Of a stretch of DNA of 41,119 nucleotides, positions 1,173-39,683 are shown one piece after another. The notes beneath the pieces were generated by a model. It worked only from the letters and a program-made list of their open reading frames with translations. It was not told the origin of the DNA and did not search any database. Position 1 is the stretch's first letter; each line of letters starts with the position of its first letter. Source of the DNA: a virus; IMG/VR virus record IMGVR_UViG_3300043410_001642, positions 1-41,119 of that record; one strand, written 5' to 3'. The translations under genes and the position numbers were made by a program.

Positions 1173-2291
1173 ATGGCAAAAAATGATTTAGCAGACATTT
1201 TGGTTGATAGTCTGAATAAGAAACAAAAAGACCAAAAAATCGCCTTCTATTTAGATGATGATTCGGAAGGAGCACCAACCAATGTAAATGGATGGATTTC
1301 AACCGGAGCAGCGATGTTAGATGTTGCTATTTCTAACCGACCATATGGTGGTATTCCAGTAGGAAGAATTACCGAACTAACGGGTTTAGAGCAGAGTGGT
1401 AAATCATTACTATCTGCTCACCTTTTAGCGGAAACTCAAAAGCAAGGTGGTATTGCAGTATTAATTGATACTGAAACTGCGGTGAGTAGAGAATTCTTTG
1501 ATGCAATCGGAGTAGATGTATCTAAACTATTGTATGTAAGTGTTGATACAGTAGAAGATATCTTTGAAACAATTGAAACCATTATTGAAAAGGTTAGAGA
1601 AAAGGATGCACAAAAATTGGTAACAATCGTAGTGGATTCGGTAGCAGCAGCATCTACTAAGAAAGAGATGGAGGCTGATTATGATAAAGATGGTTATGCA
1701 ACTGATAAGGCAATCATCATATCAAAGGCAATGAGAAAAATTACCAACACAATTGGTAGACAAAAAATTGCAGTTATTTTCACAAACCAACTTCGTCAAA
1801 AATTAGGTGTGATGTTCGGTGACCCTTGGACAACAAGTGGTGGTAAAGCATTAGCATTCCACGCTTCAGTTCGCTTAAGATTAAAGAATGTTGGGCAAAT
1901 CAAAATGAAGGTTGGTGGAAGTGATAAAGTAGTAGGTATTTCAGTAAGAGCACAAGTTGTTAAAAACCGATTAGGGCCACCATTGCGTTCAGCGGATTTC
2001 GATATCTTCTTTGATAGGGGTATTGATAATTACGGAAGTTGGTTGACGGTAATGAAGGAAAACAAATTGGTTAAACAAGGTGGTGCATGGTATGAATATA
2101 CCGATACCGATACCGGTGAAGTAATCAAATTCCAATCTAAAGATTTCATTAAGATGATGATGGATAATGAGGAATTAAGAGAGCAAATTTACAAAAGAAT
2201 TTGTGAACTAACAATTCTTCAATATAAGAAAGATACTTATGATATCGACAATATGGAAGTTGATAGTGCATTACCAAATGAGGTAGAATAA
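1173..2291 (+). CDS. uvsX: UvsX/RecA-like recombinase
   Basis: A 372-residue RecA-fold ATPase that forms filaments on single-stranded DNA and catalyses strand exchange. The Walker A motif GLEQSGKS is at residues 71-78. The Walker B strand VTIVVDSVAA is followed by an FTNQLRQK segment, equivalent to the RecA glutamine sensor region, and then by a GGKAL turn. The length is close to T4 UvsX (about 390). The C-terminus is acidic (ALPNEVE). It follows the SSB gene at 8 bases, as expected for partners in recombination-dependent replication. Its stop overlaps the start of the next gene by one base. Host RecA is the alternative relative, but the position inside a T4-like replication cluster favours UvsX. 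Confidence 0.88.
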   Translation: MAKNDLADILVDSLNKKQKDQKIAFYLDDDSEGAPTNVNGWISTGAAMLDVAISNRPYGGIPVGRITELTGLEQSGKSLLSAHLLAETQKQGGIAVLIDTETAVSREFFDAIGVDVSKLLYVSVDTVEDIFETIETIIEKVREKDAQKLVTIVVDSVAAASTKKEMEADYDKDGYATDKAIIISKAMRKITNTIGRQKIAVIFTNQLRQKLGVMFGDPWTTSGGKALAFHASVRLRLKNVGQIKMKVGGSDKVVGISVRAQVVKNRLGPPLRSADFDIFFDRGIDNYGSWLTVMKENKLVKQGGAWYEYTDTDTGEVIKFQSKDFIKMMMDNEELREQIYKRICELTILQYKKDTYDIDNMEVDSALPNEVE

Positions 2292-22807: not shown

Positions 22808-22809
22808 TT

Positions 22810-23109
22810 ATGAGTTTTGATGAATTAATTGAAAATGTATCAGGATGGGCAGCTGATAAAGATATTTTAAAAAAAGAAAATGCCCCTAAACAATTATTAA
22901 AGGTTTTAGAAGAAGTAGGTGAAACTGCGGGAGCATTATTAAAATCTAAAGATGAAGAAATTAAAGATGGTATTGGTGATTCATTTGTAACACTTATCAT
23001 TTTGGCTAAACAATTAGGTTTAGAACCTGCGGATTGTTTAGAAGCAGCATGGAATGAAATTAAAGATAGAACAGGTAAGACTGTTAATGGTGTATTTGTA
23101 AAAAACTAA
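22810..23109 (+). CDS. mazG: MazG-like nucleotide pyrophosphohydrolase
   Basis: A 99-residue all-helical protein with the EEVGE metal-binding segment and a later GIGDSFVTL (E-x-x-D type) segment, as in MazG and phosphoribosyl-ATP pyrophosphohydrolase families. It would hydrolyse a (d)NTP or related nucleotide to the monophosphate, and phage MazG proteins are thought to adjust host nucleotide or alarmone pools. It is inserted between two glycosyltransferases with 2-base spacing on each side. Confidence 0.82.
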   Translation: MSFDELIENVSGWAADKDILKKENAPKQLLKVLEEVGETAGALLKSKDEEIKDGIGDSFVTLIILAKQLGLEPADCLEAAWNEIKDRTGKTVNGVFVKN

Positions 23110-23111
23110 TT

Positions 23112-24347
23112 ATGAGCAAACCCTTTTTATTATATCAAGCACCTATTTCTACCAGAAGTGGTTATGGGGATCATGCTAGAGATTTGTTATTCTCATTAAG
23201 AGAATTGAACATATATGATATTAAAATAGTTTCAACTCGTTGGGGAAATACTCCAATGGATCAGTTAAATCCTGAAAATGAATTTGATAAATGGGCAATT
23301 GATAATATAGTATCTGAAATTCATCAACAACCCGATGTGTATATTCAAATGACAGTGCCAAATGAATTTAGAAAAGTTGGTAAATATAACATAGGTGTTA
23401 CTGCGGGTATCGAAACGACCGTTATCCCTAAAGATTGGGTAGATGGTTGTAATAGAATGGATTTAGTAATTGCAACATCCGAACATTCTAAGGAAGGAAT
23501 ATTAGGGACAGTATATACTGAAAAAAATAGAGAAACCCAACAAATTATTGCAGAACATAGAGTTACAACTCCGGTTGAAGTTTTATTTGAAGGAGCTGAT
23601 TACAATGAAATAAAAGGAATTGATAAATTAGATAAAGTAAAAGAAAATTTTGCATTTCTATTTGTAGGGCATTGGTTGCAAGGTGATACATATCATGATA
23701 GAAAAGATGTTGGTGGTATGATTCAAACTTTCTTATCAGCATTTGCTAAAACAAAAGGTGAAAAACCTGCATTGATTTTGAAAACATCTTCTGCTGGATT
23801 TAGTATTAGAGATAGAGAAGAAATGTTAAGAAAGATTGATAGAATTGCTTCGACTGTAAGAAGTGATGCTTCAATATATCTTTTACATGGTGATTTATCA
23901 AACGAAGATATGTGGAAATTATACAATGATGATAAAATCATAGCTATGATTTCGTTTACCCATGGTGAGGGATTTGGTAGACCTTTATTAGAGTTCAGTT
24001 TGACAGGAAAACCTGTAATTGCATCTAATTGGAGTGGACATACAGATTTCTTAACACAAAAGGGTTCAGTATTATTAGATGGTGAGTTAAAGAATGTTCA
24101 TGATTCTGCGGCAAATCAATTTTTAATGAAAGAATCTCAATGGTTTTATGTAAATTATTCTAATGCGGCTATTAAATTAACTGAAGTATTTAATAATTAT
24201 GATAAATACCTTTCTGAATCTACAAAAATGGGAAATGAAAATAAAATTAAATTTTCTCATAAAAAAATGACTGAAGAATTAGGTAAGTTGTGTAGTAAAT
24301 ACATTAAGGTTGCAAAGCATGTTGATTTAGTATTACCTGAATTTTAA
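23112..24347 (+). CDS. GT4-family glycosyltransferase
   Basis: 411 residues. STRSGYGDHARDLL at the N-terminus is a donor/acceptor loop like that of GT4 enzymes. The C-terminal domain has FVGHWLQGDTYHDRKDVGGM and HGEGFGRPLLEFSLTGKPVIAS, the E-x7-E-type donor site. It is similar in design to the gene at 21419 but not a close copy. Both are probably used in the same sugar chain. A DUF-like gene follows 7 bases after the stop. Confidence 0.83.
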   Translation: MSKPFLLYQAPISTRSGYGDHARDLLFSLRELNIYDIKIVSTRWGNTPMDQLNPENEFDKWAIDNIVSEIHQQPDVYIQMTVPNEFRKVGKYNIGVTAGIETTVIPKDWVDGCNRMDLVIATSEHSKEGILGTVYTEKNRETQQIIAEHRVTTPVEVLFEGADYNEIKGIDKLDKVKENFAFLFVGHWLQGDTYHDRKDVGGMIQTFLSAFAKTKGEKPALILKTSSAGFSIRDREEMLRKIDRIASTVRSDASIYLLHGDLSNEDMWKLYNDDKIIAMISFTHGEGFGRPLLEFSLTGKPVIASNWSGHTDFLTQKGSVLLDGELKNVHDSAANQFLMKESQWFYVNYSNAAIKLTEVFNNYDKYLSESTKMGNENKIKFSHKKMTEELGKLCSKYIKVAKHVDLVLPEF

Positions 24348-24354
24348 ATAACAA

Positions 24355-24948
24355 ATGGGAGCACATCAATTATATACACCTAAATGGACTAATTTAATTA
24401 CCGGTTTCAATGAGATTCCTCATGGAATGATGAAGCCTGGTAATTTTTACAAAATATCCGTATATCGTTATGCTGACCCAGAGAAAACAAAAGTATTGTC
24501 AGGTGTGGATACTGCTTACATATTTTTCATAGGTAGATATATCACAAATGGTAAAGTTCACTTCTCTGCTTTAAAATTAAAGCATGTTAGTCCAGAGAAA
24601 TTCTTTGATTCAATAAGAACGGCTATGGATAGAATTGATGAGAAAAAAATTGATGAGAGTATTGAATTTAGATTGTTATTAAAACATTTTCCAAAAGATG
24701 GAAGACCTTTATTTAATTTAATAAAGAGAGTTCCGATTATATACCATGATAATTATAGAGAATATTTAATGACTTCCATTAAAAATGTTTCACTTATTGA
24801 TATAGATAAGCAATATTTGAAAAGTAAATTTTTACCTGGATATAATAAGAATAAAAGAGTATTGGAAAGAAAAGAAGATTTGAATATAAAACAACCTGTT
24901 GTTAAAAAGAATCCACCTCCATCTGATAAAAAAATTAAAGATAAATAG
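24355..24948 (+). CDS. Hypothetical protein, basic C-terminus
   Basis: 197 residues. Begins MGAHQLYTPKWTNLITGF and contains aromatic-rich, beta-like stretches (KISVYRYADPEK, AYIFFIGRYI) followed by a helical part and a lysine-rich tail ending SDKKIKDK. I do not recognise a family. It sits inside the sugar island between a glycosyltransferase and a small protein, but nothing in it shows a sugar-related role. Nucleic-acid binding through the basic tail is possible. Confidence 0.55.
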   Translation: MGAHQLYTPKWTNLITGFNEIPHGMMKPGNFYKISVYRYADPEKTKVLSGVDTAYIFFIGRYITNGKVHFSALKLKHVSPEKFFDSIRTAMDRIDEKKIDESIEFRLLLKHFPKDGRPLFNLIKRVPIIYHDNYREYLMTSIKNVSLIDIDKQYLKSKFLPGYNKNKRVLERKEDLNIKQPVVKKNPPPSDKKIKDK

Positions 24949-24950
24949 TT

Positions 24951-25178
24951 ATGACATCAAAAGAATTTGTTATTTGGACTAAAGGTTTTGTTGCCGGTTC
25001 TAATAATTTCAATTTAACACCTGCTGGGTGGCAAGAATTAAAAGATAAATTGGGGGAAGTAAATGATGAAGACCCTAATAAATTATTAAAAGATTATGTA
25101 AATCCATATGGAGGTAAATATACAACTACTTCTACTATACCACCCTATACAACCGGTGGAAATGATATAAAAGATTAA
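24951..25178 (+). CDS. Small hypothetical phage protein
   Basis: 75 residues starting MTSKEFVIWTKGFVAGSNNF, then NLTPAGWQELKDKL. This pattern (EF-x-x-W-x-x-G-F, followed by T-x-x-x-W-x-x-x-K-x-x-L) is typical of a small helical protein found in many phages, of unknown role. The C-terminal third is proline-, threonine- and tyrosine-rich and probably disordered. It begins 2 bases after the previous stop. Confidence 0.6.
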   Translation: MTSKEFVIWTKGFVAGSNNFNLTPAGWQELKDKLGEVNDEDPNKLLKDYVNPYGGKYTTTSTIPPYTTGGNDIKD

Positions 25179-25179
25179 G

Positions 25180-25803
25180 ATGAAAATAAGTTACGCAATA
25201 ACAGTTTGCAATGAGTTAAATGAGATAACTTCTCTTATTAACTTTTTGTTACCAAGAATAGATAAAGAGGATGAGGTTGTAATCCAATATGATTCCGAAT
25301 CCGTTACAAAAGAAGTAAAGGATTATTTGAATGTAATAGGAGATTTACAAAAGCAAATAAATGTAATAACATTTCCTCTAAACAAAGATTTTGCATCATT
25401 TAAGAATAACTTAAAAGGAAATTGTAATGGCGATTATATTTTCCAAATTGATGCAGATGAAGAACCTTCCGAGATTTTATTAGAAAGATTAAAAAGAATA
25501 TTAGAAGCAAACAATGTGGATATTGTGTTTGTTCCTAGAGTAAATACTGTCAATGGTTTAACATCCGACCATATTCAAAAATGGGGATGGAACTTAAATG
25601 ATAAAGGTTGGGTGAATTGGCCTGATTATCAAACAAGAATTTATAGAAATACTCCTGAAGTAGAATGGTATGGGAAGGTTCATGAAAGAATAACTGGATA
25701 TAATACATTTAGTAACTTTCCTGCCGAAGAATCATACTCTTTATATCACCACAAAGAAATAGAGAGACAAGAAAAACAAAACAATTTTTACAATAATATA
25801 TGA
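25180..25803 (+). CDS. GT2-family glycosyltransferase
   Basis: 207 residues of GT-A fold. It starts with YAITVCNELNE (nucleotide-binding strand and loop) and carries the metal-binding D-x-D as FQIDADEEPS. Later, WPDYQTRIYRN and WYGKVHERITG match the acceptor-side motifs of GT2 enzymes of the WaaE/KdtX type. At 207 residues it is a minimal catalytic domain. It overlaps the GDP-mannose dehydratase gene by 4 bases (ATGA). Confidence 0.8.
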   Translation: MKISYAITVCNELNEITSLINFLLPRIDKEDEVVIQYDSESVTKEVKDYLNVIGDLQKQINVITFPLNKDFASFKNNLKGNCNGDYIFQIDADEEPSEILLERLKRILEANNVDIVFVPRVNTVNGLTSDHIQKWGWNLNDKGWVNWPDYQTRIYRNTPEVEWYGKVHERITGYNTFSNFPAEESYSLYHHKEIERQEKQNNFYNNI

Positions 25804-26771
25804 AAAAGAAAAGAGCACTTATCACCGGTATAAACGGAATGGATGGTTCGCATTTAGCAGACTTCCTTTTGGAAAGAGGTGATTACGAAGTATTTGGTAT
25901 TGAAAGAAGAAAGGCGAATTATTATTCACCTAATATAGAACACTTAAATGGTAAGATATCTCTAATAAAAGGAGATTTATCAGACCAAAACTCTTTGTTA
26001 AGAGCTATTAAAGACTGTGAACCACATGAAGTATATAACTTAGGGGCACAATCATTTGTAGGTGAAAGCTGGACAATGCCAGAACAAACATCTGATATCA
26101 CAGGTTTAGGAGCATTAAGAGTGTTGGAAGCCATTAGAGAATATGGTAATAAGAATACTAAATTCTATCAGGCATCTTCTTCTGAAATGTTTGGTAAGAA
26201 AGGTGGTGTAGCAAACGAAGATACTACATTCTATCCTTGTTCTCCATATGGTGTATCTAAATTATATGCACATTGGATTACTAAAAATTATAGAGAATCT
26301 CATGGTATGTTTGCAGTAAGTGGTATCTTATTTAATCATGAATCTGAAAGAAGAGGGCATGAATTTGTAACTCGTAAGATTTCAGATGGTGTTGCAAGAA
26401 TTCATTTAGGATTAGCAGACCATATCTCATTGGGTAATTTAGAATCTAAAAGAGATTGGGGTTATGCACCTGATTATGTTGAAGGTATGTGGTTAATGAT
26501 GCAACAAGAGAAATCTGATGATTATGTATTAGCAACCGGTGAAACACATTCAATTAGAGAATTCTTAGATGAAGCGTTCAAACATATTGGAATTGATAAT
26601 TGGTCTAAATATATTAAGGTAGACCCTAGATTTATCAGACCGGTTGAGGTTAGTTACTTATTGGGAGATGCGAGTAAAGCTAAAGAAAAATTAGGATGGC
26701 AACCAAAAACATCCTTTAAGGATTTAGTGAAAATTATGGTTCAAAATGATATCAAATTATTAAAGAAATAA
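25800..26771 (+). CDS. gmd: GDP-mannose 4,6-dehydratase
   Basis: A 323-residue short-chain dehydrogenase/reductase enzyme that converts GDP-D-mannose to GDP-4-keto-6-deoxymannose, precursor of fucose, rhamnose and related sugars. It shows the NADP-binding loop ALITGINGMDGSHLADFL, GDLSDQNSL, the catalytic SSSEMFGK and Y-x3-K (YGVSK), and the substrate loop NHESERRGHEFVTRKI. These are diagnostic for GMD. No GDP-fucose synthase or other follow-up enzyme is recognisable nearby, so the next step may use host enzymes or the C-methyltransferase-like protein at 27724. Confidence 0.92.
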   Translation: MKKKRALITGINGMDGSHLADFLLERGDYEVFGIERRKANYYSPNIEHLNGKISLIKGDLSDQNSLLRAIKDCEPHEVYNLGAQSFVGESWTMPEQTSDITGLGALRVLEAIREYGNKNTKFYQASSSEMFGKKGGVANEDTTFYPCSPYGVSKLYAHWITKNYRESHGMFAVSGILFNHESERRGHEFVTRKISDGVARIHLGLADHISLGNLESKRDWGYAPDYVEGMWLMMQQEKSDDYVLATGETHSIREFLDEAFKHIGIDNWSKYIKVDPRFIRPVEVSYLLGDASKAKEKLGWQPKTSFKDLVKIMVQNDIKLLKK

Positions 26772-26773
26772 TT

Positions 26774-27715
26774 GTGAAGAAAAAGATATTATTCATAAGT
26801 AGAAAGGCTGAAAGATGTGGAGTAGCGGATTACGGAGGAAGAGTAAACGCTGCTTTACAAAAATCTGAATTGTTTGAAACTCATTGGGCAGAAATAGAAA
26901 CTGGGGAAGAGTATATAAATTGGTTTAATAAAGTAAAACCTGATTTGGTATTATACAATTATTATCCAGTCATATTACCTTTTGTAACCGATGAGTTTTT
27001 AAAACCATTTAGACATGTTCCTCATGTTGCTGTATATCATGAAGTTGGATTCTATTTCACACCAACTGCAATTATTGATATAGATTCAACTTTGAGTGAT
27101 AATGTTGATAATAAAGTATTCATTTCTCCTAGACCACTTTTTGAAGATATTGAATTCAAAGATTTTCCTCCAAATGAAGTTCCAACGATAGGAAGTTTTG
27201 GATTTGGATTTCCAGATAAAAACTTTCCTAAGATTGCTGAATTGGTATGTTCACAATTTGATAAAGCTAAAATTAGATTAAATACTCCATTTGCTACATT
27301 TGGAGATTGTGATGGTGCGAGAGCAAAAGCTGAAGTTGAAAAGATGAGGCAGATAATTGATAATAGTGGTAAGGATATTGAATTGGAAGTGAATCATGAT
27401 TTTTTAGAACATATAGATTTATTAAACTTTTTAAGACAAAATGATATAAATGTTTTTTTATACGACCCGCATACAACGAGAAGTTTAAGTGGAAGTATGG
27501 ATTATGCATTATCAGTTAGAAAGCCAATCGGAATAAGTAGAAGTTGGATGTTCAGACATGTAAATTGGGTTAAACCTTCGATATATGTAGATGAACGACC
27601 ATTGAGGGATATAATAGCAGATGGTATAGAACCATTGAAACCAATTTATGAAAAACATTCAAACAAAGCGTTATTGGAGAAATACGAATACGCATTAACA
27701 ACAATATTAAATTAA
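26774..27715 (+). CDS. GT-B glycosyltransferase-like protein
   Basis: 313 residues from GTG 26774, two bases after gmd. It starts KKKILFISRKAERCGVADYG, an N-terminal loop like that of GT4 enzymes acting on capsule or O-antigen, and has FLYDPHTTRSLSGSMDYALSVRKPIGIS in the donor domain. The E-x7-E motif is not obvious, so activity or donor type is uncertain. It is very probably part of the same glycan pathway. Confidence 0.65.
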   Translation: MKKKILFISRKAERCGVADYGGRVNAALQKSELFETHWAEIETGEEYINWFNKVKPDLVLYNYYPVILPFVTDEFLKPFRHVPHVAVYHEVGFYFTPTAIIDIDSTLSDNVDNKVFISPRPLFEDIEFKDFPPNEVPTIGSFGFGFPDKNFPKIAELVCSQFDKAKIRLNTPFATFGDCDGARAKAEVEKMRQIIDNSGKDIELEVNHDFLEHIDLLNFLRQNDINVFLYDPHTTRSLSGSMDYALSVRKPIGISRSWMFRHVNWVKPSIYVDERPLRDIIADGIEPLKPIYEKHSNKALLEKYEYALTTILN

Positions 27716-27723
27716 GAAATAAT

Positions 27724-28956
27724 ATGAGTAAATTTACGAAAAAGTTGTTCAGTTTAGGAGAACTTTATGTTTCAGATTTTATCAATGTAGATTCTGATGC
27801 AAGAGCAGGGAAACATGATATGACCCTTGTTATTGATGAGAGATATGGTGCAGCTCGTTTAGATAAGTGCACTCCAATACATTCTATGTTTGGAAAGTAT
27901 TGGTATAGAAGTGGAATTAACACAACTATGAGAAACGAATTAAAAGGTATCGTAGAAAGTGTTGAATCCGTTCACAAATTAAACGATGGTGATTTGTGGT
28001 TAGATATTGCATGTAACGATGGAACACTTTTAAGTTATGTTCCCTCTAATGTTAAGAAGTTGGGTATTGACCCTGCTGAAGATTCGTTCAAAGCAGAATC
28101 ATCTAAAATTGCTGATGAAGTAATTCAAGATTATTTTTCATTAGAAAGTTTTAAGCGTTCTAAGTTTAAGAAAAAGAAAGCAAGTGTAGTAACTTGTATT
28201 GCTATGTTCTATGATTTAGATGAACCTATCGGTTTCTTAAAGGATGTATCTAAAGTAATGGAAGATGATGGATTGTTTATTATTCAAATGAGTTATACTC
28301 CATTGATGATTAAACAATTGGCTTTTGATAACATTTGTCATGAGCATGTTTACTATTGGGGATTAACTTCTATGCAAAAGTTATTAAACAAAGCAGGATT
28401 AAAAGTAGTTGATGCTCAAGTAAATGATGTTAATGGCGGAAGTTTCAGATTATACATCAAAAAGAAGAAATCAAATGTAACTTCATTTGCAACTGCACCA
28501 TATAGAGATGTATGTGATGTAAGAGTTGAATCTTTGGCTAAATGGGAAAAAGGATTGAAATTGGATAAAGAAGATATTTGGGTAGATTTCTTTGCCAGAA
28601 TTGAAGCGTTAAAAGAACAGACTGTTAATTTCATAAAAGCGGAGAAAGCTAAAGGTAAAGTTATTTGTGGTTATGGTGCTTCTACAAAAGGAAATACCTT
28701 ATTACAATACTTTGGTTTAGATAATACTTTGATTGATGCAATTGCAGAAAGAAGTGAGTATAAATTTGGTTTGAAAACAATTGGAACTAATATCCCAATC
28801 AAATCAGAAGAAGAAGTAAGAGCAATGAACCCAGATTATATGTTAGTATTACCTTGGCACTTCATTTCAGAATTTATTAAAAGAGAAGATGAATTTTTAT
28901 CTAAAGGTGGTAAATTCATCGTTCCTTGTCCAACCTTTGAAATAATCGGAAAATAA
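27724..28956 (+). CDS. Sugar C-methyltransferase-like SAM enzyme
   Basis: 410 residues with the three-part layout of NDP-hexose C-methyltransferases (TylC3/NovU type). A short N-terminal part here has few cysteines, so the usual zinc site is degenerate. The SAM domain has WLDIACNDGTLLSYV. The C-terminal Rossmann-like domain has ICHEHVYYWGLTSMQ, NGGSFRLYI and VICGYGASTKGNTLLQYFG. Such enzymes methylate a 4-keto-6-deoxysugar, the very product type of GMD two genes upstream, which gives the island a coherent pathway. It would place a methyl branch on the sugar. Confidence 0.78.
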   Translation: MSKFTKKLFSLGELYVSDFINVDSDARAGKHDMTLVIDERYGAARLDKCTPIHSMFGKYWYRSGINTTMRNELKGIVESVESVHKLNDGDLWLDIACNDGTLLSYVPSNVKKLGIDPAEDSFKAESSKIADEVIQDYFSLESFKRSKFKKKKASVVTCIAMFYDLDEPIGFLKDVSKVMEDDGLFIIQMSYTPLMIKQLAFDNICHEHVYYWGLTSMQKLLNKAGLKVVDAQVNDVNGGSFRLYIKKKKSNVTSFATAPYRDVCDVRVESLAKWEKGLKLDKEDIWVDFFARIEALKEQTVNFIKAEKAKGKVICGYGASTKGNTLLQYFGLDNTLIDAIAERSEYKFGLKTIGTNIPIKSEEEVRAMNPDYMLVLPWHFISEFIKREDEFLSKGGKFIVPCPTFEIIGK

Positions 28957-28957
28957 T

Positions 28958-29581
28958 ATGAACAAACTATTAAATCAAAAAGAACATCAAAATTATCAAT
29001 CTGCTTTGCAATTGATGAAAGAACATTCTCCTGAAATGTTAGCAAGAAAAATTCCAGAAGCGTGTATTCAACAGGCATTTACATTGCAAACTGCTTTGGA
29101 TTTAACTCCAAAGGGAGGATTAGTATTATCTGCTGGAAGCTGGGAAGATACTGCTACTGAAAGTTTGAAAAAATTAGGATATGTTGTAACGGATGTAGAC
29201 CCGATGATTAATTCGGATCTTAAAACTTATTTTGATAACAACCCACAGCTACATAATAAAATTGATTCAGTAGTATCAACATCAGTTATAGAGCATGTTC
29301 AAAATGACGAAGAATTTATAGATTGTATTTGTAAATTATTAAAGAAGGGTGGATATGGAATTGTAACAATGGATTACAACAATGATTATTTAAATGGTAA
29401 TGTAACCAAACCAAACGAAGATGTTAGGTTATATACTGAATATGATTTGAGAGTGAGATTGAATTCGGTATTAGAACAAAATGGTTGTGAATTATTGAAC
29501 GCAGATTATAGTGGAACAAATGATTTCTGCTATGCTGGTCATTGGTACACATTTGCTACATTTGTATTTAAGAAAAAATAA
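28958..29581 (+). CDS. SAM-dependent methyltransferase, class I
   Basis: 207 residues starting one base after the previous gene. GGLVLSAGSWEDTATESLK is a variant of the SAM-binding motif I, with GYVVTDVDPMI supplying the acidic residue that binds the ribose. VVSTSVIEHVQNDEEFI and LLKKGGYGIVTMDY are typical motifs IV and V of small-molecule and sugar methyltransferases. Probably modifies a hydroxyl of the glycan or a precursor. The substrate is unknown. Confidence 0.72.
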   Translation: MNKLLNQKEHQNYQSALQLMKEHSPEMLARKIPEACIQQAFTLQTALDLTPKGGLVLSAGSWEDTATESLKKLGYVVTDVDPMINSDLKTYFDNNPQLHNKIDSVVSTSVIEHVQNDEEFIDCICKLLKKGGYGIVTMDYNNDYLNGNVTKPNEDVRLYTEYDLRVRLNSVLEQNGCELLNADYSGTNDFCYAGHWYTFATFVFKKK

Positions 29582-29584
29582 TAA

Positions 29585-30247
29585 ATGAACGAGATATATA
29601 AATCGGAAACTGGTCTAGATAAGTGGATAAGAGAAAATGTATTCACTGATTATGAATATAAAGGTATTATGATAGAAGTAGGAGCGGCAACGCCGGAAAC
29701 TATTTCAAACTCATACCATTATAGAATAAATGGATGGAGAACGATTTGTATTGAACCAAATCCTTATTTCATAGAATTGCATAAAAAATCAAATTCTGAA
29801 GCTTATCAATATGCCTGTTCAGATGTTGATAAAAATGAAGTTGATTTTATAGTAGTAGGTAACGAAACGAATGATAGTGACTTAAATTATCATTCGTTTT
29901 CACACCTTGACACTACTGATATTTTAATAAATGGTGAAATAGCAGAAGATTGGAAGAATGTATATCATTCATCTGATAAGAAAACAATAAAAGTTAATGT
30001 TAGAAAACTTGATACTATTTTAACCGAATTAAATGTTGATAGGATAGATATATTAACAATTGATGTGGAAGGTAATGAAATGAATGTATTAAAAGGATTT
30101 GATATAGTAAAATATAATCCATCTATAATCGTAATAGAAAACATATCTAGACTTGATATTTTTAGAGAATTATTGAAGGAATATGGATATACTAATATTA
30201 TTACATTAGGGGGATATGATGAGATTTATGTAAATGATAAAAAATAG
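29585..30247 (+). CDS. FkbM-family methyltransferase
   Basis: 220 residues. MIEVGAATPETISNS (motif I), WRTICIEPNPYF, VRKLDTIL and IDILTIDVEGNEMNVLKGF are the diagnostic order for FkbM-type O-methyltransferases, common in bacterial and phage glycan clusters. It would O-methylate a sugar hydroxyl. The gene contains a 12-bp hairpin at 29865-29899. Confidence 0.82.
   Translation: MNEIYKSETGLDKWIRENVFTDYEYKGIMIEVGAATPETISNSYHYRINGWRTICIEPNPYFIELHKKSNSEAYQYACSDVDKNEVDFIVVGNETNDSDLNYHSFSHLDTTDILINGEIAEDWKNVYHSSDKKTIKVNVRKLDTILTELNVDRIDILTIDVEGNEMNVLKGFDIVKYNPSIIVIENISRLDIFRELLKEYGYTNIITLGGYDEIYVNDKK
29865..29899 (+). other. 12-bp hairpin inside the FkbM gene
   Basis: AAACGAATGATA (29865-29876) and TATCATTCGTTT (29888-29899) are perfect reverse complements around an 11-base loop, with one more T after the right arm. 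A 12-bp exact stem is unusual in coding sequence. The short T-run makes it only a weak terminator candidate. Confidence 0.5.
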
Positions 30248-30250
30248 TTT

Positions 30251-30601
30251 ATGATTAAGATAAGTTTAGACGAAGCATATGTGTTTGATTTATTATCCAT
30301 TTATTCGGTTAAAATAGATAATAGCGATGGTGATAAAAGAGAACAAAGTTTTAAAAACTATAATTTATTGTGTAAAGAAATACAAAATCAAATAGGTGTA
30401 GCTAAATTTACTCAAATTATTAATAGTAATGAATATAATAATTTAAAAATTGCTAACCAATTAGTTTTTAATTTAGTTGATAGAGCAAATGAAAATGAAT
30501 TGGCAAAAGAAACGGCTGGTGCTAATTATGAAAGATATCTTAAAAAAATAGAATTACAAAAGAAATTTTTTAACACTAATGTAACTGAAATTAAACTATG
30601 A
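30251..30601 (+). CDS. Hypothetical helical protein
   Basis: 116 residues, mostly helical, starting MIKISLDEAYVFDLLSIYSVKI. No recognisable motif. It overlaps the next gene by four bases (ATGA) and is embedded in the sugar island. The N-terminal wording is reminiscent of small phage proteins that begin with an ISLDEAY stretch, but I cannot name a family. Confidence 0.55.
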   Translation: MIKISLDEAYVFDLLSIYSVKIDNSDGDKREQSFKNYNLLCKEIQNQIGVAKFTQIINSNEYNNLKIANQLVFNLVDRANENELAKETAGANYERYLKKIELQKKFFNTNVTEIKL

Positions 30602-31338
30602 GTGAAATCAAATCATATTTGCAAGGAGGTAAATTAGGAGATTTAATTCATAGTTTAGTTGTATGTAAATTCAACTATGAATTCTTTAATTACAAAGCTG
30701 ATTTATATATCGGTAATATAGGTGATAATTTTGAAAAGGGATTGGAATATACCTATAATGATTTAAAGCCGGTATTGGAACAACAAGAGTGGTTAAATTC
30801 ATTTGGTATATACACTGACCAACATATTGATATCAACTTAACAAAGTTTAGAGATAGTGGTTATCTATACACCACAAATTGGATTGAAATATATTTTGGT
30901 GAATTTTTTAACGGAATGCCTGCACCAAAGGAATATAGTTGGATTACTTTACCAAAAGATGAAAACTTACAAAATACTTTATTGATAAATCGTTCTATGA
31001 AACCAATGACCGAAAAGGTCACTGAATTCTATAAACAAGTAATAGATGAAAATAAAGATTTAGATAAAGCGTTTATATGTTTTGATGAAAATCAATATAA
31101 TAATTTTACACTTAGAAATGAATGTAGAATGATTAAAGTAAATAGTTTATATGATTTCTTTCAAAAAATAAATAGCTGTAAATTATTCTTAGGTAATCAA
31201 TCCGGTCCAATGGCTTGGGCTACATCTATGAATGTACCAAGAATAATAGAATTATTAGCAAGAACGGATAATGTTCATTATATAAAGGATACCGAATATT
31301 ATTCAAATTTTAAATGGTTTCAAGGAGATACTGCATAA
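30598..31338 (+). CDS. GT-B (GT9/heptosyltransferase-like) glycosyltransferase
   Basis: 246 residues. The N-terminus SYLQGGKLGDLIHSLVVCKF resembles the G-x-x-GD-x-I/L entry loop of ADP-heptose transferase-like enzymes. Near the C-terminus, CKLFLGNQSGPMAWATSMNVPRIIEL matches the donor site of the GT9 family (strand, G-x-D/Q-S-G, helix, P). It is short for the family (about 340), so it may be a reduced member. It overlaps the following GT2-like gene by one base. Confidence 0.68.
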   Translation: MSEIKSYLQGGKLGDLIHSLVVCKFNYEFFNYKADLYIGNIGDNFEKGLEYTYNDLKPVLEQQEWLNSFGIYTDQHIDINLTKFRDSGYLYTTNWIEIYFGEFFNGMPAPKEYSWITLPKDENLQNTLLINRSMKPMTEKVTEFYKQVIDENKDLDKAFICFDENQYNNFTLRNECRMIKVNSLYDFFQKINSCKLFLGNQSGPMAWATSMNVPRIIELLARTDNVHYIKDTEYYSNFKWFQGDTA

Positions 31339-32501
31339 TGAGTAACATATCAACACTAGTAGGATTAAAAAACAATTTAGAATATTCTAAAAAGTTTTAT
31401 ACAAGATTTAGGGAAGTTTACCCAACGGAAGAATTGTGTTTTGCCAGTTATGGTTCTGATGATGGAACTAATGAATGGTTGGATTCTTTGACTGATGAAA
31501 ATTTAAAATATTACTATTCAAAAGATAAGAAAACATTTTCAGATACATTCAACAAATGTGCCGAAATAGCAACCAAAGAATATATAGTGTTTTGTCATAA
31601 CGATATTGTTATGTTAGAAGGCTGGTTGGAGAACATAGAAAAACATTTAAACAAATCAACCGCGGTAACATATACTACCATAGAACCTCCTATATTTTCC
31701 GATCATGAAAGGCCTGGAAAAATAATAAGAGATTTTGGTTTAGAATTTGAAGATGTAAATTATGAAGAATTAGAAAAGTTTGGGAAGGAAACACAAGAAA
31801 AATATAAAAACCAAACAACGGAAGGAAATGCATTTTTTATAGCACAACATAGAGGTATGTATTTGGCAATTGGTGGTATGGATAATTTGTATTCCCCAAT
31901 GTTTTGTGAAGATGATGATATTCTTTTTAGATTAAAACTATTGGGTATTCGTACAATAGTTAGTTTGGATAGTATAGTATATCATTTCGTATCAAAAACA
32001 TCTCGTTTCTCTGAAGAACATAAAACTAATACTCAAGAAATAGAACGAAAATCTAATTTGAACAAAGTTAGAAAATGGGGTAGAATAGGTTTAACCACTG
32101 ATTTACACACTTATGATATTGGTTTAATTATACCAAATTGTAATGAAGATATATTGAGAGCATTAGAGCCATTTGTATCGACTATATTTGTAGATTGTGA
32201 TTTTATTAATTATATAAATTCAGAGCAACCTAATACTAAAATAAATCTATCAAGAAAGATAAAACCAATCAATAGTGTTAGGGATAATGATATTATACTT
32301 AGATGTAATGATGTATCTAAATTTACAAATGATGATTTTGGGTTGATTGCGAATCTTTCTAACTTTATATCAAATGAACAGGTTAAGCCTAATACAACAT
32401 TTGATTTTCAAAATTTCACTTTTAATGTGAAATCTAAGAATACATACGAACACAAATTAGTAAGTCTTAAATCAGATTATTATTTAGACAAATGTATTTA
32501 A
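31338..32501 (+). CDS. GT2-like glycosyltransferase with extra C-terminal domain
   Basis: 387 residues from ATG 31338, which overlaps the previous stop; the earlier in-frame TTG at 31314 is unlikely. The GT-A part (residues about 1-230) shows FASYGSDDGTNEWL, VFCHNDIVMLEGW (metal-binding N-D-x) and MYLAIGGMDNLYSPMFCEDDDILFRLKLLG, the conserved end of GT2 catalytic domains. Residues 240-387 form a second, unrecognised beta-rich domain. It overlaps the next gene by 10 bases. Confidence 0.75.
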   Translation: MSNISTLVGLKNNLEYSKKFYTRFREVYPTEELCFASYGSDDGTNEWLDSLTDENLKYYYSKDKKTFSDTFNKCAEIATKEYIVFCHNDIVMLEGWLENIEKHLNKSTAVTYTTIEPPIFSDHERPGKIIRDFGLEFEDVNYEELEKFGKETQEKYKNQTTEGNAFFIAQHRGMYLAIGGMDNLYSPMFCEDDDILFRLKLLGIRTIVSLDSIVYHFVSKTSRFSEEHKTNTQEIERKSNLNKVRKWGRIGLTTDLHTYDIGLIIPNCNEDILRALEPFVSTIFVDCDFINYINSEQPNTKINLSRKIKPINSVRDNDIILRCNDVSKFTNDDFGLIANLSNFISNEQVKPNTTFDFQNFTFNVKSKNTYEHKLVSLKSDYYLDKCI

Positions 32502-33744: not shown

Positions 33745-34938
33745 ATGAATATGAATTTAAAAGGAATTATGAATAGTTTAGGTGCACAACCTGGACAAGT
33801 AGTATCTGACCCGTTTGCAAGAGCATTTGCACCTGCGCCGGTTGTTAAAGAAGAAACAATAAATGAAGAGGATCATGAAGTATCTATGGCTCAGAAAACA
33901 TTAGATGATATAATCAAAAATGCAACTGAATTAAAAGCTAAAATAGGTGAAGCTGAAACGGATTTACCAGCTTGGATTCAGGATCATATCAGTAATTCTG
34001 CAAACTATATTGACCAAGCAGCAAGTGGATTCTATAAAAATGAATCAATAAACGAAGAGGAAATTAAATGGAATGCAGTTGAAAATGCAATCATTAATTT
34101 TCTAAAAATGAATACAAAGATTTTAGATAAAAGAGTTAAAGATAGAGATACTGCAGGAGTTAAAGGTGGGTTAAAATCTATTATTAGTGGTTTAACTAAT
34201 GCACAGAGAAGTTTGAAATTAGAATCAATAAACGAAGTATCATATACTGTCAAAGCAAAAAATGCGTATGAATTTGTAAATGGTGCATATTCAGTTTTAG
34301 GTGCTTATTTAAGAGATGAAAAATTAGATAGTAGTGCAAAAGCTGCTCTTCAAAGAGTGGTAAAAGATTTAGAAGGATTGAGAAAGTATTTTTTCTCTAT
34401 GAAAGATGAATCAATAAACGAAGCATTCAAACATATTATATCAGTAGAAACTCCAACTCAAGTAGTTTCTAAACCAATAGCGGCACAAATTGAAAAATTA
34501 GCTAGACAAGGTGTTAGAGCATCTGAAATTGGTTTGAAAATGGGATTTGTAGGAAACCAAAAAGCAGCAACCGATGCTTTCCAAAAAGTAAAAAATCAAA
34601 TTTATTTTAAATTAAATAAATCTGAATCAGTAAACGAAGCAAGATTAACTGATATTGTTAATTCTATCATTGAAACTCCTGTAATTGGTAAAATGGTAGT
34701 TAATGCTCCTTCAACTACTCAACAAGTATCTGAAGCAAAAAAATATGATGTTGGAGCAGGGTTTATGGGAAATGGTTTAACTATTTGGAATAGAGCTGAA
34801 GAAGAACATGGAGATTATAGAATCATTGCACACATTGACCCATATGGTAAAATTAGTATTAGAGATAAAGAAATCCCATCTAATGTTATGAATATGATTA
34901 AAGATTGGGCTGAGGCAATTAAAAAAGGCGATAAATAA
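33745..34938 (+). CDS. Putative prohead-protease-processed polyprotein, five or six sites
   Basis: 397 residues. Recurring E-(S/T)-(I/V)-N-E motifs end at E41, E104, E164, E226 and E298, and a weaker QVSE ends at E330. The pieces between them are about 32 to 72 residues. P3 is Ile or Val and P1 is Glu, as in T4 gp21 cleavage sites (L/I-x-E). The pieces look like separate small domains: one with TDLPAWIQDHISNSANYIDQ (a helical module seen in other T4-like virion proteins), others helical, and the last with GNGLTIWNRAEEEHGDY, a known small phage module. The N-terminal piece is proline/alanine-rich. I infer it is packaged and cut into modules. Tail-fibre repeats are less likely because the domains differ. 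Confidence 0.6.
   Translation: MNMNLKGIMNSLGAQPGQVVSDPFARAFAPAPVVKEETINEEDHEVSMAQKTLDDIIKNATELKAKIGEAETDLPAWIQDHISNSANYIDQAASGFYKNESINEEEIKWNAVENAIINFLKMNTKILDKRVKDRDTAGVKGGLKSIISGLTNAQRSLKLESINEVSYTVKAKNAYEFVNGAYSVLGAYLRDEKLDSSAKAALQRVVKDLEGLRKYFFSMKDESINEAFKHIISVETPTQVVSKPIAAQIEKLARQGVRASEIGLKMGFVGNQKAATDAFQKVKNQIYFKLNKSESVNEARLTDIVNSIIETPVIGKMVVNAPSTTQQVSEAKKYDVGAGFMGNGLTIWNRAEEEHGDYRIIAHIDPYGKISIRDKEIPSNVMNMIKDWAEAIKKGDK
33853..34639 (+). repeat. Dispersed 16-base repeat GAATCAATAAACGAAG
   Basis: Exact copies start at 34042, 34222 and 34408. A copy with one change (GTA for ATA) starts at 34624, and a copy with two changes starts at 33853. A related copy lies in another gene at 37548-37563. 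They encode the E-S-I/V-N-E sites and keep the same codons, including AAC for Asn, although AAT is common around them. Confidence 0.75.
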
Positions 34939-36525: not shown

Positions 36526-36783
36526 ATGACAGTTTCTGAATTCAAATTAGAAAATCACAAAAGTATCACCGCAGAAGTGGCTGAGAATCAAGCATTATAC
36601 GATGGAACACACGCTGAAGAGGGTGATAAGTTGATAGATTGCTTTTTAGTATCAGAAGACGGTGAAGAAAAATTAATATACATAATCCCATCTCAATTAG
36701 CAGATTTTGAAATAGTTGAAGATTTGGAGTATGATGTATTCATTCCGTTATCAGACCAAAAATTCAAAGTTAAACTTAAATAA
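36526..36783 (+). CDS. Small acidic protein, tandem paralogue A
   Basis: 85 residues. Begins MTVSEFKLENHKSI and ends LSDQKFKVKLK. It is homologous to the next gene: MTV-x-E-x-KLEN, LY-x-G, G-x-K/L-x-D, S-x-L, F-x-IV and QKF-x-VK are shared in the same order. No known domain. The predicted all-beta, acidic character and the position in the prohead block suggest a small structural or virion-decorating protein, but this is not shown. Confidence 0.6.
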   Translation: MTVSEFKLENHKSITAEVAENQALYDGTHAEEGDKLIDCFLVSEDGEEKLIYIIPSQLADFEIVEDLEYDVFIPLSDQKFKVKLK

Positions 36784-36785
36784 GA

Positions 36786-37061
36786 ATGACAGTATTAGAA
36801 TGGAAATTAGAAAATTCAGTAGTAGTAACCGATGATAACTATGAGATGTTAAACACAACACAAATGTTATATAGTGGTGCTGAAATAACAAAAGGTTCTA
36901 AATTTATGGATGCAATATGCGAAACCGAAGAATTTGGACCTAAGACAGTTTACTTTTTAGATAGTGAATTGTATGAATTATTTGATATCGTAGATAATCC
37001 TGAATGGGATGATATGACTCCAGTAGCTACTCAAAAATTCACAGTAAAACCAAAAGCATAA
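36786..37061 (+). CDS. Small acidic protein, tandem paralogue B
   Basis: 91 residues, starting two bases after paralogue A. It begins MTVLEWKLENSVVV and ends TQKFTVKPKA. Divergence from A is high but the signature positions are kept, so the duplication is old. It has six more residues, mainly in the first loop. It is followed after 3 bases by the larger leaderless polyprotein gene. No domain recognised. Confidence 0.6.
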   Translation: MTVLEWKLENSVVVTDDNYEMLNTTQMLYSGAEITKGSKFMDAICETEEFGPKTVYFLDSELYELFDIVDNPEWDDMTPVATQKFTVKPKA

Positions 37062-37064
37062 GAA

Positions 37065-38114
37065 ATGCCAGCAGTAAGTAAAGCACAACAAAGATTTATG
37101 GGTATGGTGCATGCAGCCGATAAAGGCGAAACACCAGCATCCCCTGAAGTAGCAAAGGTATCAGCTTCTATGAAAGATTCAGATGCGAAAGATTTTGCTT
37201 CTACTAAACACAAAGGATTGCCTGATCATGTTAAAGAAGCAGTTAAGGAAATCGTAAGAGGTGTATTAAGAGGAGAAGGAGCATTTGGTTCAGTAGGTGG
37301 TGGAGCAGAAGATGCTAGAAACCTAATGGAGATGAGCCCTAATGATGTTCACTTTAAAACTATTATTAAATTATATGATAGAGGTGGTTCATTTACTAAA
37401 AAGAAAGTAGGAGTAGTGGTATCTAGAAATCCTAGAGCATCAAGAAATACAATTATTGATGACTTGAAAGATATGGATTATCATGAAATTCTTAATGCTG
37501 AAGATGAATTAGGTATAAAAGAAATAGTTGAAAAACGAATCGCAGAACAATCGGTAAACGAAGCTAAATATCCAACTGACTTAAAAGTGGGTTCGGTAAT
37601 TTTGGGGCAAGGATTCACAATGTTAAAAGGAATTGAAGGCGGAAAATACTACAAAGTTGTTGCAATAGATGATTATTCGGCAACATTAGTTCCATCTGAT
37701 AAGAATGGTAATGTAAAAGGTTCATCAAAAGTTAGACATAAATTAGATTCAATTGAAGGTGGTATTAGAACTGCTAAGAGAGGTGATGAAAACGGAATTG
37801 TTGTAATAAAAGAATCAGTAACCGAAGAACATGATTGTGGATGTAATGAAGATTATGATTGTGGATGTGGTGGATTACATGAACACCATATCAATGAAGA
37901 TATAAATGCGGATGCAAATGGTATAGCAGGTTTAACTGCTTCTAGAGCAAATGCGGTTAAAGATTTCATAGAAAAGCATAAATTAGATTCAAACAAATTA
38001 TATCAGTTCTTAAAAAAGGGTGGATTGAAAGATAAAATGGATTTCGTAACTGCATTAGTTGGGAAGCCGGGTAATTCTATTCAAACAAAACTAATAAAGC
38101 AATTTAGTAAATAA
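37065..38114 (+). CDS. Putative processed virion protein with DUF3008-like start and metal-binding peptide
   Basis: 349 residues. Residues 1-55 (PAVSKAQQRFMGMVHAA, then DFASTKHKGLPDHV) match the DUF3008-like module of phage and bacterial proteins. Candidate protease sites end at E166 (EQSVNE), E254 (KESVTE) and E278 (HHINE). Residues 172-248 (DLKVGSVILGQGF to NGIVVI) are a domain that recurs in the protein at 38406. Between E254 and E278 is a 24-residue piece with two DCGC units and several histidines, probably a metal site. Residues 279-349 are a helical basic module. The site pattern suggests four released pieces. Confidence 0.6.
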   Translation: MPAVSKAQQRFMGMVHAADKGETPASPEVAKVSASMKDSDAKDFASTKHKGLPDHVKEAVKEIVRGVLRGEGAFGSVGGGAEDARNLMEMSPNDVHFKTIIKLYDRGGSFTKKKVGVVVSRNPRASRNTIIDDLKDMDYHEILNAEDELGIKEIVEKRIAEQSVNEAKYPTDLKVGSVILGQGFTMLKGIEGGKYYKVVAIDDYSATLVPSDKNGNVKGSSKVRHKLDSIEGGIRTAKRGDENGIVVIKESVTEEHDCGCNEDYDCGCGGLHEHHINEDINADANGIAGLTASRANAVKDFIEKHKLDSNKLYQFLKKGGLKDKMDFVTALVGKPGNSIQTKLIKQFSK

Positions 38115-38405: not shown

Positions 38406-39683
38406 ATGAAATTAAAACATATACTTAATCCATCTCCTATTGTAGAATCTGACCTTAAGGTTGGAAATATGTATATGGTGCATGGGTATCCTCTTCTAAA
38501 AGGATTATTCCCAAACAAATACTATAAAATTCATTCTATTGATGGAGATGATGTAACTCTTCAACAAGTTAATCAATTTGGTAAAATAACCAATTTATCA
38601 AATGCTCCAGTAACACATAAATTATCTTCAATTAAGGCATCAGTTCAAAGTATTGGAAATGGTGATGCAAATGGTTTAGAATTAACAAACGAAGCAACTG
38701 CATCTGAAATTGTGAAAGATTTGGATAAAGTTAGAAATGATTTAATTAAAAAAGTAGATGTATTAATTGCTAAAAAGAAGAAACTTTATTCTAATGTAGA
38801 TATTGAATCACCAATGAGTGCTGATGAGAAACAATTAGATAAAGATATACAATCTATATTTTCACAAATTCAACAAATAATTCAACAAAAAAGAAGTTTG
38901 AAAAGTGAATCCGTAAAAGAAAATAAAATGATGAAATTAAAAGATGTCTTAAAAGAATCTGCTGGGTTTAACAAAAAGATAAAGAGTGATTTGGATTCAT
39001 ATTTAAAAGATTTTAAAAGTGGTACTCCTACACATCAATGGGCTGTTAAAGAAATATTAAAAAGTGCATTAACTGATGCAAATTTTCATAGTGCAGCTAA
39101 GAAAGTAGATTCATTATTTTCTAGAGCTAAATACGAAGAAGATTCTGCTAAAGAAAAATCATATCAAAACGCGGTAGAAAGAAAAGGTAGAGAAATTGCT
39201 AATAAAGCAAAATGGGATGGATATGAAATCATAGATGCTATATCATTTTATACATCAATGACAATAGGTCATCCACTTGGACAAAAAATAAATTCATTAA
39301 AGGAAGGAACAATTCCTCAACATATTAATAAAGTTGAATCTAAATTATCACTTAAAACTCTTATGAACGAAGCAAAGTTTCCGGTATATCACAAAACATA
39401 TACATCTGCTATTAGTTCAGCATTAGACTGGGTTGAAAAAATGGGGTATGAATATGATGAAGAAGAAACTGCGAGAGAAATAGGAATGGGGCCAAAAAAA
39501 CCATCCGAAGGTAAAACAAATAGATTTTCTATTTCATTAACTAAAAAAGGTAAGCCGGTAAAACAACATTTACAAATACAGGTTTACAATATGGGAACAT
39601 TCAAAAGAAACTCTGATGGTTCTAAGACTAGAAGTATGTGGGGTGGACAAAATGAATATGAATTAAATTGTTATATAGGGTAG
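38406..39683 (+). CDS. Putative multi-domain processed virion protein with leader
   Basis: 425 residues. The leader MKLKHILNPSPIVE fits an I-x-E site after E14. Residues 16-93 repeat the domain found at 172-248 of the protein at 37065 (DLKVG, LKG, YYK, HKLSSI, GDANGL). Candidate sites then occur in LTNE|A, ESVKE, DVLKE|S (preceded by an internal MMKLKDVLKE that copies a leader) and LMNE|A. The last module, about 100 residues (FPVYHKTYTSAISSALDWV to ELNCYIG), resembles a stand-alone T4-like phage protein with GPKKPSEGKTNRFSISL. The whole looks like fused genes. No catalytic motif. Confidence 0.62.
   Translation: MKLKHILNPSPIVESDLKVGNMYMVHGYPLLKGLFPNKYYKIHSIDGDDVTLQQVNQFGKITNLSNAPVTHKLSSIKASVQSIGNGDANGLELTNEATASEIVKDLDKVRNDLIKKVDVLIAKKKKLYSNVDIESPMSADEKQLDKDIQSIFSQIQQIIQQKRSLKSESVKENKMMKLKDVLKESAGFNKKIKSDLDSYLKDFKSGTPTHQWAVKEILKSALTDANFHSAAKKVDSLFSRAKYEEDSAKEKSYQNAVERKGREIANKAKWDGYEIIDAISFYTSMTIGHPLGQKINSLKEGTIPQHINKVESKLSLKTLMNEAKFPVYHKTYTSAISSALDWVEKMGYEYDEEETAREIGMGPKKPSEGKTNRFSISLTKKGKPVKQHLQIQVYNMGTFKRNSDGSKTRSMWGGQNEYELNCYIG

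Follow-up and report, generated by a model that had tools for sequence, protein, structure and literature searches.

A coding repeat at predicted protease sites as a probable homology patch for module exchange in polyprotein genes of T4-like phages

Among the systems closest to the genes considered here, the tail adhesin gp38 of T-even phages reportedly swaps segments through recombination between its conserved glycine-rich motifs, in work attributed to Tetart and colleagues in 1998. A second precedent, said to have been described by Arbiol and colleagues in 2010, is that of the PeSLs, mobile regulatory cassettes of T4-type phages made of intergenic promoter/stem-loop elements. The polyprotein genes described here resemble gp38 in that short conserved coding motifs lie between variable, exchangeable segments and serve as points of recombination, and both features of gp38-type swapping, exchangeable segments between conserved coding motifs and breakpoints at these motifs, were found. 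In gp38, nevertheless, the glycine-rich motifs stay in the mature protein, whereas here the motif (ESxNE) is a predicted protease site and the modules are unrelated folds that vary in number and order; neither gp38 homology nor glycine-rich motifs were found in the polyproteins. As with the PeSLs, short conserved DNA at module borders would promote shuffling in T4-type phages. In contrast to these intergenic elements, however, the repeat is intragenic and coding: each of the 118 distinct matches is in frame within an ORF, and none has a PeSL-type position between genes.

The head of T4 offers a third comparison. Its prohead protease gp21 cuts after L/I-X-E and has as substrates the internal proteins IPI-III, Alt and the core proteins gp67, gp68 and gp22 (PMC9026906). 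The predicted sites described here resemble these in ending in x-E, and many leaders of the group (MKxxxLLxE) share length and ending with the T4 capsid targeting sequence. T4 internal proteins, however, consist of a single mature protein behind one leader, whereas in the arrays up to nine sites, with mostly Val at P3, divide up to ten short modules per chain (median 76 residues). Likewise, phage polyvalent proteins are multidomain polypeptides whose domains occur in varying combinations and which are believed to be packaged and ejected (PMC5512222), but they carry recognisable enzymatic domains, whereas the present modules are short and have near-identical sites between them. Domain mosaicism in phage proteins, the ongoing shuffling of protein fragments between phages (PMC10684548), is also comparable, although a search of that text found no discussion of breakpoints, linkers or cleavage sites and no DNA-level junction of this kind. 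In the openly accessible literature that was searched, no paper describing these arrays was found. On the evidence here, the arrays work like gp38-type swapping and resemble the T4 internal and core head proteins in the gene location seen in relatives and in predicted processing, while being a member of neither.

The window, by which we mean the whole 41,119-nt stretch analysed, comes from a virus record of 141,368 bases and represents a fragment of a T4-like phage, with a T4-like replication set comprising UvsX, a DnaB-type helicase, a family B polymerase, a clamp loader and ribonucleotide reductase. It also contains, at 21419-32501, a long run of glycosyltransferase-like, methyltransferase-like and sugar-metabolism-like genes in what is a lytic-type phage genome. 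The modular gene (Table 1) has ETINE at residue 37 of its product and ESINE or ESVNE at residues 100, 160, 222 and 294. The 16-base sequence GAATCAATAAACGAAG is exact in repeats 2, 3 and 4, with one mismatch in repeat 5 and two in repeat 1, all in frame. The five positions are those given in the preliminary description, whose spacing of about 60 codons compares with measured distances of 63, 60, 62 and 72 codons, and which was also correct in reporting Asn as AAC and Ser as TCA in the four close copies.

Table 1. Features of the window (positions counted from its first letter)
Feature	Position	Strand	Remarks
UvsX-like recombinase	1173..2291	+	presumed engine of short-homology recombination; phrog_97, E = 2e-76
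Modular predicted polyprotein gene, 397 aa	33745..34938	+	six segments with five ETINE/ESINE/ESVNE sites between them
Junction repeat 1	33853..33868	+	GAAACAATAAATGAAG, ETINE|E, two mismatches
Segment F54 (N-terminal module)	33868..34056	+	relatives in cyanophages (S-CAM9, S-RIM8, others), where VNE also follows
Junction repeat 2	34042..34057	+	exact, ESINE|E
Segment F6 ('B'), 60 codons	34057..34236	+	most widely shared module; in several different genes and positions
Junction repeat 3	34222..34237	+	exact, ESINE|V
Segment F8 ('D'), 62 codons	34237..34422	+	common to L001, L006, L009, L012, L019, L020, L134
Junction repeat 4	34408..34423	+	exact, ESINE|A
Segment F17, 72 codons	34423..34638	+	common to L015, there directly after F6
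Junction repeat 5	34624..34639	+	GAATCAGTAAACGAAG, ESVNE|A
Segment F57 (C-terminal)	34639..34935	+	constant gene end in L015 and, by alignment, L003 and L016
DUF3008-headed modular gene	37065..38114	+	degenerate junctions at 37548 and 37812
Neighbouring gene	38406..39683	+	degenerate in-frame junction at 38679 (ELTNEA)

Three further near-matches, also in frame, lie in two neighbouring genes, at the degenerate junctions listed in Table 1, which brings the window to eight matches with at most three mismatches against 1.1 expected (maximum six in 100 dinucleotide shuffles). Throughout the 141-kb record, every match with at most two mismatches falls within the cluster. The segment between the two junctions of the DUF3008-headed gene shares 86% identity with a single motif-to-motif segment of L003, and a further L003 segment is missing there. 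Upstream of this gene, two adjacent small ORFs (36526-36783 and 36786-37061) have similar starts and layout (MTVSEFKLEN.. and MTVLEWKLEN..) and look like tandem paralogues; an apparent tandem paralogue family of seven small ORFs (101-132 aa, starting MLxIxN..) is likewise seen at about 133481-135870 of record G000 (L042). An AlphaFold model of the whole polyprotein was poor (mean pLDDT 51, pTM 0.22) and only suggests helical hairpins within three central segments, with low-confidence stretches around the sites.

For the window gene alone, a codon null gives P = 0.009 for at least three identical 15-mers among the four ESxNE copies, so that this gene by itself is suggestive and not decisive. 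Because of this modest evidence, relatives were collected in three scans of viral contigs, yielding 116 distinct genes with 263 motif sites. Homologues of the window gene occur in 36 IMG/VR loci, many of them matching single segments only. The carriers are all metagenomic contigs except for one named isolate, which speaks for a misjoining of contigs at the short repeats. Nevertheless, complete genes are letter-identical across separately assembled datasets (L009/L010/L011, L012/L013/L014 and L021/L022/L023/L036). Sixteen bases are also shorter than the usual assembly words, which counts against misassembly as well, and we give this explanation a negligible probability.

The relatives confirm that the domains between the repeats are unrelated to each other, as the preliminary description held, since the segments sort into different sequence families (71 upstream and 72 downstream, with 137 junction types). 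As many as 26 upstream families join at least two different downstream families, and one of them joins ten. The window gene has the architecture F54-F6-F8-F17-F57 and L015 has F54-F6-F17-x-x-F57; the N-terminal part, F17 and the C-terminal part are common to both, F8 is found only in the window, and two segments found only in L015 precede the point at which the shared C-terminal part resumes. L012 (F3-F6-F8-F26) and L020 (F3-F6-F7-F8-F26) differ by one extra 180-bp motif-to-motif unit in L020, between flanks that are 97.4 and 99.7% identical. Similarly, a 150-bp motif-to-motif unit present in L019 is its first difference from L009, behind an upstream flank of 99.3% identity, and extra units of 282, 294 and 135 bp occur in L167 (relative to L161), L171 (relative to L169) and L135, respectively. 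In L153 and L161, two internal segments are in reversed order between flanks that are 97% identical. Finally, segment J is present with 90% DNA identity in different polyprotein genes of two phages (L020:8536-8715 and L021:85-264), and modules therefore also move between loci. Domain order is thus not identical among homologues, whole motif-to-motif segments having been gained, lost, replaced or reversed in order, and these alignments establish the genes as modular at the sequence level.

The direct repeats, at their fairly regular spacing of 60-72 codons, could resemble a decayed tandem array, in which an ancient duplication diverged, the spelling was inherited and ordinary deletions account for the differences. 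However, the segments between the repeats belong to unrelated families, near-identical genes differ by the insertion of segment J, which also occurs in a different gene of a second phage, and the order of segments is reversed in near-identical genes. Vertical descent of this sort appears already contradicted by the family, segment J and segment-order data, and we consider it extremely improbable.

The content of the modules was also searched. Comparison with Pfam, PHROGs and PDB sequences led to no firm indication of module function, no PHROG or Pfam assignment was obtained for the polyproteins at the curated cut-off, and segment F6 had no match among isolated phages. The last module of one polyprotein (L021:10814-11026) has a weak, below-cut-off Pfam match to the CarD/TRCF RNA-polymerase-interacting domain and no PDB sequence match. 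In L001 (10001-10759) and L002 (10001-10750), the orthologous gene ends after segment F8 (..ESVNT/KSLRLTKLK), and DNA resembling the C-terminal segment of the window gene is present downstream of the stop.

Pooling the relatives makes the case decisive: the pattern GAATCR[A/G]TAAACGAA is present at 98 of 193 sites, where the null gives 7 on average and 19 at most. Taking one site per non-homologous upstream segment family, which removes the shared descent of flanks, this pattern is still matched by 38 of 71 sites (null 2.6, maximum 9). At ESxNE sites, Val is encoded by GTA in 133 of 145 cases (background 42%), Asn by AAC in 134 of 193 (background 35%) and Ser by TCA or TCG in 155 of 193 (background 43%). 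By way of control, the 35 copies of TINEV, a fixed cleavage-type site of the scaffold protein gp22, show 15 different spellings. The codon-shuffled model put forward in the preliminary description as a check fails to give the observed number of identical copies, and these sequence counts demonstrate a DNA spelling shared across unrelated flanks. Chance as the source of the repeat is ruled out by the shuffle, codon-null and family-sampled counts. A frame-independent or double-stranded DNA element is ruled out as well, the 118 distinct matches all being in frame and on the coding strand.

The positions at which related genes cease to match were then compared with the motif. For blocks of at least 90 bp and at least 93% identity, 44 of the 57 unique ends are no more than 3 nt away from a motif (null mean 3.3, maximum 11 of 2000). 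In a wider set of near-identical blocks, 87 of 176 ends come within 3 nt of the edge of a motif, where 1.6% would be expected. Most ends that are far from a counted motif fall at degenerate xVNE/xLNE sites (GKLNE, KVNE, GVNE) outside the search pattern. Pairs, events and counts share ancestry, so that the nominal P values are too small and need to be read with caution. The stronger argument is how sharp the peaks are: left ends cluster at -1/0 relative to the start of the motif and right ends at 0/+1 relative to its end. The gradient predicted for crossovers inside the motif is weak. The same behaviour is seen at the individual repeats of the window gene. At repeat 2, DNA downstream is at least 95% identical to that of L035, L001, L024 and others, while the upstream DNA is unrelated; L015 carries a different segment after repeat 3, and its HSP with the window resumes at repeat 5 (34624); the HSP with L006 extends to the end of repeat 4 (34423) and ends there. 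The ends of near-identical DNA blocks therefore coincide with motif edges, which was the breakpoint check proposed beforehand, and recombination at the repeat is, as judged from the sequences, well supported.

These observations bear on whether the DNA or only the peptide matters. Illegitimate recombination could occur at many places, with the survivors being those joined at the protease site and with no role of the DNA in pairing. Such an explanation agrees with the sites being domain boundaries by nature, with every DNA match being in frame and encoding the motif, and with the synonymous spelling of Ser and Asn not being constant within lineages. Nevertheless, the breakpoints keep to the motif edges (-1/0 and 0/+1) and do not spread over the adjacent linker codons, codons are shared across unrelated flanks far above usage (as with Val GTA and Asn AAC above), which selection on the peptide fails to explain, and the comparable fixed TINEV sites of gp22 are freely spelled. 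We therefore regard a role of the peptide only as unlikely.

At the other extreme, the 15-mer could be a dedicated site that a homing endonuclease or site-specific recombinase recognises, in which case the gene would be an integron-like array of in-frame cassettes. The segments do act as cassettes between direct repeats and the breakpoints are resolved to the nucleotide; against this, a scan of ten polyproteins revealed neither nuclease nor recombinase domains, and the 30 window ORFs scanned with PHROGs included no site-specific recombinase. In addition, the motif is absent outside coding frames and from the other strand, many spellings are tolerated with recombination still occurring, unlike at a specific recognition site, and T4-type short-homology recombination suffices (PMC9391042). 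A dedicated site is accordingly very improbable.

Regarding the constancy of the repeat, the preliminary description proposed that the DNA, and not just the peptide, is kept. This is true of comparisons between non-homologous contexts but fails inside a lineage, where segment pairs of at least 95% identity show differences at 4.2% of motif nucleotides and at 1.6% of the remainder. Per residue, the motif codons for Val, Ile and Glu are held more than their surroundings in orthologous segments, and those for Ser and Asn less. Strict purifying selection on the DNA spelling is ruled out, given that the motif Ser and Asn codons vary more than neighbouring ones. Several pairs, among them L155/L165 (288 nt) and L035/L151 (291 nt), are identical up to the motif, differ in the motif and then continue into different segments, and motif mismatches average 1.5-1.7 per pair when one flank is swapped and 0.5 when neither is. 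Since motif variation tracks flank swaps, the repeat would be a junction at which variants drawn from one common pool are joined. A set of near-identical variants that are traded at the junction describes it better than does a DNA signal under strict conservation, and the variation that accompanies segment swaps seems to fit crossovers in or at the motif, not a rigidly selected DNA signal.

Taken together, we consider it probable that a coding repeat of a predicted protease site doubles as a homology patch for the exchange of polyprotein modules. The idea of a junction sequence at which segments are added or exchanged by homologous recombination, already advanced in the preliminary description, is supported by the architectures, the breakpoints and the codon null, the mechanism itself being read from sequence. 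In this process, the 15-16-nt repeat would separate small independent modules and offer short homology, through which co-replicating phage genomes, or two copies in one genome, could recombine. Whole in-frame modules would thereby be inserted, deleted, replaced or reordered, each new join keeping the cut site and the frame. We infer that the UvsX-type system of the phage would drive this recombination; as T4 recombines at 2-10 bp of homology (PMC9391042), 15-16 bp would be ample. Selection for domain boundaries alone would likewise enrich breakpoints near the sites, and selection keeping only crossovers at domain boundaries must contribute too, but homologous recombination through the repeat appears to be the best-supported mechanism.

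The repeat would encode a prohead-protease site, E-S/T-I/V-N-E, with cleavage predicted after the last Glu. Sites 1-4 of the window gene read I-N-E, whereas site 5 and most relatives read V-N-E, so that P3 is mostly Val versus the L/I of T4. Peptidase_S77 and Gp23 genes are present in related records, and PF03420 occurs in 8 of 16 of them and is absent from the 141-kb fragment of the window, in which gp21 and gp23 were not found. As with the T4 core genes, the polyprotein genes of relatives lie between a gp21 homologue and the scaffold gene, the order in L006, L009 and L012 being gp21 - polyprotein - scaffold - MCP. In the MCP of L006, TLLE|N is found at 48-52, at the mature start implied by alignment to mature T4-type capsid protein. 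A leader of about 10 residues ending in L/I-x-E (MKxLLxE-type) was not found in the window gene, which starts MNMNLKGIMNSLGAQ. MKxxxLLxE starts, similar to the T4 capsid targeting sequence, are common among the other ORFs of the group, e.g. in the related loci L006, L009, L012 and L021: 118 of 972 ORFs have one, whereas control residues in place of the Glu give 3-12. From this setting, we infer that a T4 gp21-type protease would cut at the sites and that the modules would be head-packaged proteins; that the released modules might be packaged and ejected is a guess by analogy with the T4 internal proteins. Judged by capsid protein, the closest phages in culture are Microcystis phage Mel-JY01 and Flavobacterium phage immuto (53-56% identity), relatives that may point to Bacteroidota hosts.

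More broadly, and only tentatively, since we hold it to be somewhat short of probable, a large group of uncultured T4-like phages may keep combinatorial, head-packaged small proteins as cleavable arrays. The protease site would serve there as a universal DNA recombination adaptor, such that any module from any array could be inserted anywhere in frame, be released separately and possibly be ejected into the host. The arrays draw attention to small proteins that lack annotation and are probably co-packaged with the genome, and the MKxxxLLxE leaders could serve to predict further head-packaged proteins. The 71 upstream and 72 downstream families with their 137 junction types constitute a natural data set for measuring short-homology recombination in wild phages, and whether modular exchange is guided by junction DNA identity or by protein selection alone is now directly testable. 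Seen at nucleotide resolution, these genes indicate how modules can shuffle without breaking the reading frame or the processing, in that the cut site would itself be the joint.
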